From a virus, in IMG/VR virus record IMGVR_UViG_3300008107_000003, positions 1 through 64,000 of that record: a stretch of 64,000 nt of DNA; one strand, 5' to 3'. Position numbers and translations under genes: made by a program. Position 1 is the stretch's first letter; each line of letters starts with the position of its first letter. The notes under the pieces were generated by a model. The model was not told where the DNA came from and did not search any database. It was given only the letters and a program-made list of their open reading frames with translations. Positions 47,751 to 55,710 of the stretch are shown one piece after another.

Positions 47751-48830
47751 TCAACCGATTGCAGGTGCAGTCAGAGCAACAGGAGTGCTAGAAGCAGCAG
47801 CAAGATCGAGAGGGAAGTTATGAGCATTACGCTCGTGCATCACTTCAAAACCGAGGTTAGCACGGTTGAGAATGTCTGCCCAAGTGTTGATAACACGTCC
47901 CTCCGACGAAAGGAGAGACTGGTTAAAGTTAAATCCGTTGAGGTTAAATGCCATCGTGGATACACCCAATGCCGCGAACCAAATTCCCACGACAGGCCAT
48001 GCTGCGAGGAAGAAGTGTAGCGAGCGAGAATTGTTGAATGATGCATATTGGAAGATAAGACGACCAAAGTAACCATGTGCAGCTACGATGTTGTATGTTT
48101 CTTCTTCTTGTCCGAACTTGTATCCATAGTTCTGCGATTCGGTTTCAGTTGTTTCACGGACGAGGGAACTAGTGACCAAAGATCCATGCATAGCAGAGAA
48201 AAGAGAACCACCAAATACACCAGCCACCCCAAGCATATGGAAGGGGTGCATGAGGATATTATGTTCCGCCTGGAAAACAAGCATGTAATTAAATGTTCCT
48301 GAAATGCCGAGAGGCATAGCATCAGAGAAGGAACCTTGTCCAAATGGATATACGAGGAACACTGCAGAAGCAGCAGCAACGGGTGCGCTGTAGGCAACAC
48401 AAATCCAAGGACGCATACCAAGTCGGTAAGAAAGTTCCCATTCACGACCCATGTAGGCATAGATACCAATCAGAAAGTGGAAGACGACCAGTTGAAATGG
48501 TCCACCATTATATAGCCACTCATCGAGAGAGGCAGCTTCCCAGATGGGATAGAAGTGAAGACCAATAGCGTTGCTTGAAGGAACAACAGCACCAGAAATG
48601 ATGTTGTTTCCCCACATCAATGAACCAGAAACAGGTTCACGGATGCCATCAATGTCCACTGGGGGAGCACCGATAAAGGCGATGATGAAACACGTCGCTG
48701 CAGCAAGCAGCGTTGGGATCATCAACACACCGAACCAGCCAACATATAGGCGATTGTTCGTTGAAGTAACCCACTGACAAAACTGTTCCCAGGAGTTAGT
48801 AGATTGTCTTTGAGCAATTGTAGCAGTCAT
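47751..48830 (-). CDS. psbA: Photosystem II D1 protein
   Basis: 359 aa, full length and uninterrupted (no intron). All landmark residues are in place: D170, E189, H190 (Tyr partner), H198, H215, H272, H332, E333, H337, D342 and A344, with a processed C-terminal tail of 15 residues. Position 130 is Glu, as in the high-light form of cyanobacterial D1. It replaces photodamaged host D1 to keep electron flow during infection. It is flanked by its own promoter region and terminator. Base composition appears less AT-rich than the structural genes. Confidence 0.98.
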
Positions 48831-48987
48831 AATCGTTAAAAGAATAGTAAGACCATCAGGGAAATGGTGGAGATACTATGCTCCCTGCACCCTCAGCAGG
48901 GATATGAGAGACGTGATTTATACACCCTAGAGGTCTCGGTTTTCGGGGTGTTCGGAACGTTAAGAAATGTTTCGTTTCCTTAACACT
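48831..48987 (-). promoter_or_regulatory. Structured psbA 5' leader
   Basis: About 155 nt of untranslated leader. Stem-loops visible on the minus strand include GTTAAGGAAA / TTTCTTAAC, CACCC / GGGTG and CCCTG / CAGGG. A second late-like box TATAAATC occurs within it (near 48917-48924). It could govern stability or translation. No gene is seen in it. Confidence 0.55.
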
Positions 48988-48995
48988 TATTTATA
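48988..48995 (-). promoter_or_regulatory. Late promoter box of psbA (TATAAATA)
   Basis: Exact T4 late consensus on the minus strand. It overlaps the -10 box of the early promoter by three bases. Confidence 0.65.
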
Positions 48996-49021
48996 ATACT
49001 ACGGTTCCCCGTCCCTGTCAA
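48993..49021 (-). promoter_or_regulatory. Sigma70-type early promoter of psbA
   Basis: TTGACA (49021..49016), spacer 17, TATTAT (48998..48993). It lies just beyond the stop of the autotransporter-like gene. Confidence 0.8.
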
Positions 49022-49026
49022 GCCCC

Positions 49027-51075
49027 CTAGAACCTGAATTTGACCTTTGCTGCCACTGAATTAGTTGTCACACCGTCCGATACCCCATGGGATCCTTCGA
49101 CAAATAAAACTTCATTATAGTCTAATGCTGCGGTAACCCCATAAGAATTATCAGTGCCATAAGCACCATCAACACTGACACCAAAAACATCGTTCTTCTT
49201 GCCTCCAAATCTAGTTTCTAGTTTGAGACCTGCTTCTCCAACATGTGTAGTCTGATTGAATGCTTCAACAGTTCTTGCTGACTGTGGATACCACTGTTCA
49301 GTATATCCTTCTCTTGTCATATTATGTGCTGTGTGACCTACAAATGGAGAAATCCATTTTGCAACATGCCAGTACAAACGATTAGATACCCACCACTCTT
49401 TACCTGTTGTTTGACCTCTATTGTAAAAAACATTCTCAACAGTTCTTTGAATATCATATGTGCTATTTGCCATAGCAGCATTAGTAATCAAAGAGAATGT
49501 ATTTCCATGGAAGCTATTGAAGATACCATAATGTTCTTTGTTTTGTTTAGAAATACTATCAACACCAACTAAATCAATTTGAATATTATTATATTGACCC
49601 CCAATAGTCCATCCTTTACTGAGATCCAATTCAAATCCACCACCATAAATTTGAGACTTTCCATCATATCCATCAGCATTATATGATTGAGCAAAGTAAT
49701 TTTTATTAAATACTCTAAACTTCTGTTTAGTTTGTGATGGTTCATGATTAAGAAGGCTATTAATTCCACCATTAATTCCATCAAGAACTTCTAGTTGATC
49801 AACACGACCATAAAGATCTCTGTAAGTATGATACTCATCATATCTTGTGGAAGCAACATAAGTATCAACTGGTGTTCCATTTGTTACAGTATCATTTCCA
49901 TTTGCATCAGTTGTTGTGATAACAGGAGTAGTTGTAACAGTTGTAAGTAATGGAGTTGTTACTCCAGTTGTAACATGAATATTCACTTTTTGGGTTCCAC
50001 TACTTTCAGTTGCTGTGAAAGTAGGAGTGTTAACAACTGTAGGCGCACCAGATACTACAGTATTATAAGCATACGATGGTCTAGTGACTGCTGTTGATTG
50101 TAAGGCAGAAGCAGTTACGGCAGATGTTCCAGTTCCATCAGAAGATGAAGTAGTAACGACTGCTGTTCCATTTGATGTGGTTGTGGAACCATCAGAATAT
50201 GTGGTGGTTGTAACTGGTGTTGTAGTTGTAATTGTTGTAGTAACTGGAATTGTAGTAACTACCGTGTCTGTGTAGGTTCTAACAACAGGATTACCGTCAG
50301 CGTCAGTAGAAGCGTCAGTTCTAGTAACATAAGATGTCTCCGTTCTTGTTGAGGATGACGAAGAAGTTGTAACCTGATTTGTAGTTGAAGTTCCAGTTAC
50401 AGTTGGAGTTGGATTGCCTGCGGCAGCACCCTGAGCTGGAGTTGCTAATGTAGTAAATCCATAACTAGATGGAATAGTACATTGTGCTGGAGCAAGTGTT
50501 GTGTCTTGGCAAAGTCCAGCATAAGTTCCTAACTGAATAGACGAGGTATTTGCTGTATTGTTACCAGATACATCAAACGAAACTGTGTATTGTGTTCCAG
50601 CATCAAGATTGACACCCTGATAGATACCATCAAAGGTTCCTACAGCACCGTCATACCACATTCCGTTAGTCCATGTTCCAGCAGCAGCAGGATAGGTTCC
50701 GTTCTGATACCAGACACCCCAGTTAGTTGGCGCTTGAATATTAGATGGTCCGTTGCTGGTTGTGATGCTGAATGCTCCACCAGTAGTGAAGTCACCATTC
50801 GTTAAAAGATTGACCGTAGATCCTGGAGCATACAATCTAACGTTATCAAACGACCAGAATGCTGGGTCTTGGCGGAAAGCAAAACCTACAAAGTTAGCAC
50901 CACTAGTAGAGGGAGTGTAATTGTAGGTATAAGTTTGCCATGTGTTTGGAGTGTTGCCAGTAACTGTTCCGATGTATCCTGGTGGCAATACTCCTGGTTG
51001 AGCGAATGCTGCTGTTGGCACTCCAAAAAAGAGCGCAGACGCTGCAGCGAGCGTCTTTTGCGTGTTAGTAGACAT
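49027..51075 (-). CDS. Autotransporter-like outer membrane protein
   Basis: 682 aa from ATG 51075. A signal peptide (about 1-25, TLAAASALFFGVPTAAFA) is followed by a beta-sandwich domain (about 30-200; NTPNTWQTYTYNYTPSTSGA, LLTNGDFTTGGAF), a 180-residue Thr/Ser-rich passenger linker, and about 230 residues ending in an amphipathic beta-barrel whose last residues are KVKFRF. The terminal Phe and strand alternation are typical of type V autotransporters. Such genes are rare in tailed phages. It may display or alter the surface of infected cells. Host origin is plausible. Confidence 0.72.
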   Translation of the reverse strand: MSTNTQKTLAAASALFFGVPTAAFAQPGVLPPGYIGTVTGNTPNTWQTYTYNYTPSTSGANFVGFAFRQDPAFWSFDNVRLYAPGSTVNLLTNGDFTTGGAFSITTSNGPSNIQAPTNWGVWYQNGTYPAAAGTWTNGMWYDGAVGTFDGIYQGVNLDAGTQYTVSFDVSGNNTANTSSIQLGTYAGLCQDTTLAPAQCTIPSSYGFTTLATPAQGAAAGNPTPTVTGTSTTNQVTTSSSSSTRTETSYVTRTDASTDADGNPVVRTYTDTVVTTIPVTTTITTTTPVTTTTYSDGSTTTSNGTAVVTTSSSDGTGTSAVTASALQSTAVTRPSYAYNTVVSGAPTVVNTPTFTATESSGTQKVNIHVTTGVTTPLLTTVTTTPVITTTDANGNDTVTNGTPVDTYVASTRYDEYHTYRDLYGRVDQLEVLDGINGGINSLLNHEPSQTKQKFRVFNKNYFAQSYNADGYDGKSQIYGGGFELDLSKGWTIGGQYNNIQIDLVGVDSISKQNKEHYGIFNSFHGNTFSLITNAAMANSTYDIQRTVENVFYNRGQTTGKEWWVSNRLYWHVAKWISPFVGHTAHNMTREGYTEQWYPQSARTVEAFNQTTHVGEAGLKLETRFGGKKNDVFGVSVDGAYGTDNSYGVTAALDYNEVLFVEGSHGVSDGVTTNSVAAKVKFRF

Positions 51076-51134
51076 AAAAATACTTCGATAATTTGACATT
51101 CACAAATCAAACCAAAGTTTAATAAGCAAGCACC

Positions 51135-55490: not shown

Positions 55491-55710
55491 AGAAGGGGAA
55501 GGTCAATCCCCCGTGAGCAGGCTCGCCACCTATTTAGTTATCGAGGAAATAGGAAACTCGGCGGGAGATAAATCCCCATCCGCACCACTTGCTTTTTAAG
55601 GAAGCAAGAAACCTAAAAGGGAACCGTCCCGACCAGGGCGCTTTTAGTGTCATCCCGAGACAAGTAGGGTCATTGACTCCACCAGTGCTGTTATAGTCCA
55701 TCCGTGACTA
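55491..55710 (-). other. 220-bp tRNA spacer with hairpins, no clear gene
   Basis: Contains a CTTGCTT/AAGCAAG hairpin (55588-55608) and several GC-rich inverted repeats. A 39-codon frame exists on the minus strand but has no RBS. No tRNA T-arm is found. It may hold a small RNA. Confidence 0.45.

Follow-up and report, generated by a model that had tools for sequence, protein, structure and literature searches.

Overlapping sigma70-type and T4-type late promoter sequences upstream of psbA in a T4-like cyanophage

The composite promoter described here belongs to a virus of marine cyanobacteria, a T4-like member of the Kyanoviridae, whose sequence is a 176,692-base IMG/VR virus record. The window, i.e., the whole stretch of DNA that was analyzed (64,000 nucleotides), is part of that record. 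The features that bear on psbA transcription, all on the minus strand, are as follows, in window coordinates.

49027..51099, minus strand: 690-aa open reading frame upstream of the element, with no Pfam or PHROG matches
49016..49021, minus strand: sigma70-type -35 hexamer TTGACA, from the sequence; TTGAC recurs in the N17 register at Kyanoviridae psbA loci
48993..48998, minus strand: -10 hexamer TATTAT, after a 17-nt spacer, from the sequence
48988..48995, minus strand: T4-type late box TATAAATA, from sequence and conservation
48982..48986, minus strand: predicted transcription starts, sigma70 near 48986 and gp55 late near 48982, from the -10 and late-box positions
48959..48984, minus strand: 5'-terminal RNA hairpin GTTAAGGAA-loop-TTTCTTAAC, 9 bp with one G-U pair, from folding
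48868..48962, minus strand: PhotoRC-II RNA (RF01717) in the psbA leader
47751..48830, minus strand: psbA, photosystem II D1 protein, 359 aa
40793..41047, minus strand: gp33 late co-activator (phrog_254, E 6.8e-30; 62% identity to S-PM2 gp33)

Upstream of psbA, the minus strand reads TTGACA-GGGACGGGGAACCGTAG-TATTATAAATA (49021-48988). Eleven of 12 bases agree with the sigma70 consensus TTGACA-N17-TATAAT, for which one mismatch was allowed, and the last 3 bases of the -10 hexamer are also the first 3 of the late box, which carries the T4-type sequence (either TATAAATA or NATAAATA was accepted) and lies 157 nt from the psbA ATG (48830). A preliminary description of this DNA had given TTGACA-N17-TATTAT overlapped by TATAAATA at exactly these coordinates, and both position and sequence were confirmed, on the minus strand. 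With the -10 hexamer set at -12 to -7 and the late box at -13 to -6, the positions that T4 late boxes occupy (PMC1524935), simple arithmetic places the two predicted starts 4 nt apart. A conserved -35 is not a feature of T4 late promoters, and gp55 requires none (PMC2988020). Here, TTGACA is kept at N17, and the element is therefore a composite, not a plain late promoter. The protein factors for late transcription are also present: gp33 is encoded within the window, as the same description had claimed, and genes for gp55 and gp45 lie outside the window in the same record, so that the phage encodes all three. The window further contains an outer-membrane beta-barrel protein of the cyanophage type (PF24653; 46247-46651, minus strand) and a wcaG RNA (RF01761, 81 bits) adjoining tRNA genes (55515-55616, minus strand).

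Because the window holds only 2 exact copies of TATAAATA, fewer than the 7.9 expected from shuffling, the octamer alone is no evidence; its significance comes from combination and conservation. The 176.7-kb genome contains 10 sites of the form TAnn[AC]TAAATA, and TTGACA stands at the right spacing only at psbA. When the scan was relaxed, the -35 match was 6/6 at psbA and at most 3/6 at the other nine. Likewise, TTGACA is found at the correct distance from just one of 51 NATAAATA boxes, that of psbA, and among 50 strong sigma70-like sites only the psbA site runs into AAATA. A second phage genome gave 2/48 against this 1/50, and within these two genomes a general trait of strong phage promoters is ruled out. 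Ordinary late boxes in the source genome and before g23 have no -35; g23 loci are a weak census for a late-only control (18/78 carry NATAAATA inside 300 nt), and ACTAAATA shows no clear enrichment before g23. Across 17 phage records, picked for holding psbA or psbD with match positions left unconstrained, the exact pattern TTGACN18TANNNTAAATA matched 30 times, versus once for a reversed-pattern control. These pattern counts, the reversed control, the relaxed scan, and the host genomes considered below rule out a chance origin.

The preliminary description had called for an alignment of psbA upstream regions from other cyanophages, and that comparison bore out the overlap. The composite precedes psbA in 51 of 80 IMG/VR loci (49 in the exact register and 2 with an 18-nt spacer) and in 15 of 17 named or single-cell records of Kyanoviridae and their T4-like relatives. 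Nine of these 15 read NATAAATA, and six read ACTAAATA, the a/gC late-box form known from phage Aeh1 (PMC2988020, PMC1524935); the two records without a composite, S-SSM7 and ACG-2014f, read CATATATA and TATAATAAACA, respectively. The register is constant, with the late box beginning 3 nt within the -10 hexamer. Sixty unique composites retain TTGAC, the late box, and the TG of an extended -10, while their spacers have diverged to a mean pairwise identity of 39% and form 24 clusters when grouped at 70% identity. Since the search pattern itself imposed TTGAC and TAAATA, only the TG columns count here as independent evidence (T in 55/60 and G in 43/60, where the source phage reads TAG). Three contigs (L060, L064, and L076) and S-SSM7 keep the sigma70 half with the late box missing or degraded, and the three contigs retain PhotoRC-II in their psbA leaders, which makes these leaders natural variants for testing the late box. 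At four composite-less loci (L022, L059, L018, and L065), glutamine-type riboswitches (RF01704, RF01739) lie directly downstream of psbA.

Outside the Kyanoviridae, none of six cyanophages has the composite before psbA; five are T7-like (P-SSP7, S-RIP2, P-SSP10, S-B28, and DSL-LC07), and the sixth is S-CBWM1. The late box occurs in 0/38 host psbA upstream regions, and the exact pattern matched once in 81 Cyanobiaceae genomes, versus about 18 times for the reversed control. Puxty et al. (2018) likewise looked for an upstream motif shared with Synechococcus and found none (PMC5931967). Since box and pattern are essentially missing from host psbA genes and genomes, the promoter was, judging by these sequences, most likely built within the phage rather than imported with psbA; inheritance from the host along with psbA is ruled out by the 0/38 regions and the single match in 81 genomes.

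The 30 exact matches in the 17 records fall before 14 psbA, 13 psbD, and 3 SLH/porin genes and nowhere else, although for one psbD match (L401), located at the end of its contig, only the gene start is visible. In the last three, the gene encodes SLH domains, alone or together with an OprB porin domain (L383:1501-1534, L402, and L387:1501-1534), and a hairpin-like repeat follows the composite there. At about 50 of 75 psbD loci, the composite stands about 31 nt ahead of psbD; many of the remaining psbD genes are directly behind psbA or small genes. The psbD version reads TTGACC/T-N17-TAA[GC]ATAAATA (e.g., L211:37766-37799, which is S-PM2 137766-137799, and psbD loci L214-L291). In P-HM2 (L405, near 178180-178213), a DUF680 gene that directly follows talC has an extra TTGACA-N17-TACACTAAATA about 100 nt ahead of it. 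We would give even chances to the idea that T4-like cyanophages possess a small dedicated promoter class, phage-built rather than host-inherited, in which sigma70 and gp55 sites are fused with a fixed 3-nt overlap and which is reserved for the host-derived genes psbA, psbD, SLH porins, and perhaps DUF680.

The leader RNA is predicted to be structured. The hairpin lies directly at the predicted 5' end (folding z of -2.96 for 48957-48986), and PhotoRC-II scores 76.0 bits, above the Rfam gathering threshold of 39 (E 2.4e-11). The leaders of relatives differ in layout and were therefore folded one by one, with z-scores from single-base shuffles; the median z was -2.15, with 47/61 below -1, and the folding position is mostly the same where the sequence differs. 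According to Puxty et al. (2018), the S-PM2d psbA leader contains an inverted repeat of 36 bp (PMC5931967), and the folding of related leaders indicates that a similar hairpin is widespread among them.

Conservation, phage specificity, and the presence of gp55, gp33, and gp45 genes strongly support two recognition sequences on one DNA. We consider it likely that they form a composite sigma70/gp55 promoter of a T4-like cyanophage that is used by the host polymerase first and by the gp55 polymerase afterwards. Host RNA polymerase with the primary sigma factor would act on TTGACA-N17-TATTAT until phage late factors accumulate; later, the gp55-bearing polymerase, with gp33 and the gp45 clamp as its activators, would act on TATAAATA, which overlaps the -10 by 3 nt. 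Since the two starts are predicted within about 4 nt, the 5' hairpin would head the RNA from either one, with PhotoRC-II next. psbA would thereby be transcribed from the sigma70 phase, which is probably middle and not immediate-early, through to late infection, and the continuous D1 supply suggested in the preliminary description might follow from this. If true, this model would explain how photosystem genes stay transcribed through a change of polymerase specificity, and it predicts two psbA 5' ends that differ in timing and lie about 4 nt apart. The composite would also be a sequence signature by which phage-controlled photosystem genes could be simply recognized.

The preliminary description had called the two halves early and late promoters. 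The two overlapping recognition sequences stand, whereas "early" is doubtful for the sigma70 half. The auxiliary genes of P-HM2, psbA included, belong exclusively to the middle expression class (PMC5082946), and T4-like cyanophages have neither motA/asiA nor T4-like middle promoters (PMC2984593). Because P-HM2 psbA is found only in the middle class, "middle into late" fits better than "early then late," and it also agrees with the psbA RNA isoforms measured in S-PM2d from early into late infection (PMC5931967). Host-like promoters at middle genes, which Doron et al. 2016 reportedly found in the Syn9 transcriptome, would be consistent with a middle assignment. Three observations count against sequential use of the composite by both polymerases: P-HM2 carries the psbA composite although its psbA falls only in the middle cluster, the relatives L060, L064, L076, and S-SSM7 keep the sigma70 half without the late box, and ACTAAATA lacks the clear enrichment before g23 noted above.

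The strongest competing explanation, to which we assign a somewhat less than even chance, is that the overlapping sites jointly yield one middle-class profile rather than continuous expression. This idea draws on the P-HM2 expression data and the missing motA/asiA, and it has a model in RB49 and S-PM2, where the middle class is proposed to arise from overlapping early and late promoters (PMC2984593). It is at odds with the distribution of the overlap, which in S-PM2 and the source genome occurs only at psbA/psbD, not at general middle genes. Also, the work on S-PM2d, in which psbA RNA isoforms were tracked from early into late infection, places the largest difference in spliced psbA RNA under high light in late infection (PMC5931967).

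It is improbable that only the sigma70 promoter works, with the conserved AAATA serving a strong host-type promoter in melting or initial transcription. In its favor, the sigma70 half of every psbA composite is close to consensus, some relatives have no late box, and unrelated viral contigs also contain comparable sigma70-plus-AAATA sites, in which A is the usual shared base. Against this, strong sigma70 sites rarely reach AAATA in the two phage genomes, the box is missing from all 38 host psbA upstream regions, and variation at this position tracks the known late-box variant ACTAAATA. Some read-through into psbA is possible, as the 690-aa gene, which runs in the same direction, stops 5 nt ahead of the -35, and a terminator was looked for between that gene and the element and not found; that psbA RNA derives chiefly from such read-through, with the element contributing little, is very unlikely considering that the element is conserved beside quite different upstream genes. 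Least probable of all is a late box that works alone beside a leftover or accidental -35/-10 match, for even though late boxes are common in the source genome and gp55 needs no -35, other late boxes have no TTGAC at N17, and this one keeps TTGAC at exactly N17 plus TGn ahead of the -10 across the 24 spacer clusters.

The core idea of an overlapping early/late psbA promoter is not new. Puxty et al. (2018, ISME J, PMC5931967) describe a sigma70/Gp55 motif overlap upstream of cyanomyovirus psbA and read it as early plus late expression; their motifs 3 and 6 likewise have a sigma70 -35/-10 with the Gp55 late site inside the -10, and the S-PM2d leader, like that of the source phage, is long and has a hairpin. 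The source phage, with its -35, -10, and Gp55 site before psbA, is an additional case, matched at the level of the motif description. None of the following turned up in the openly accessible literature searched: confinement to psbA, psbD, and SLH/porin genes within the records scanned, the fixed register, and absence from hosts and the six other cyanophages. The text of Puxty et al. (2018) covers psbA only; the register, the psbD and SLH/porin promoters, the hairpins of other phages, and absence from hosts were examined here. What is apparently added, then, is that the register is fixed, that the element is phage-specific, that it is also used by psbD and SLH/porin genes, and that its leader joins a 5' hairpin to the known PhotoRC-II. 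The latter is the RNA described by Weinberg et al. (2010, PMC2864571), and the source leader differs in having an additional hairpin upstream of it at the predicted 5' end. Compared with the T4 late promoter, the source phage has the exact consensus and all three protein factors, but its box is 157 nt from the start codon, where many late boxes in the genome are about 20 to 60 nt away, and is paired with a -35. Finally, the overlapping early/late promoters of RB49 and S-PM2 middle genes likewise place two classes of promoter within a single region, again in phages that lack motA, whereas the composite is found at psbA, psbD, and few other genes rather than at middle genes in general.
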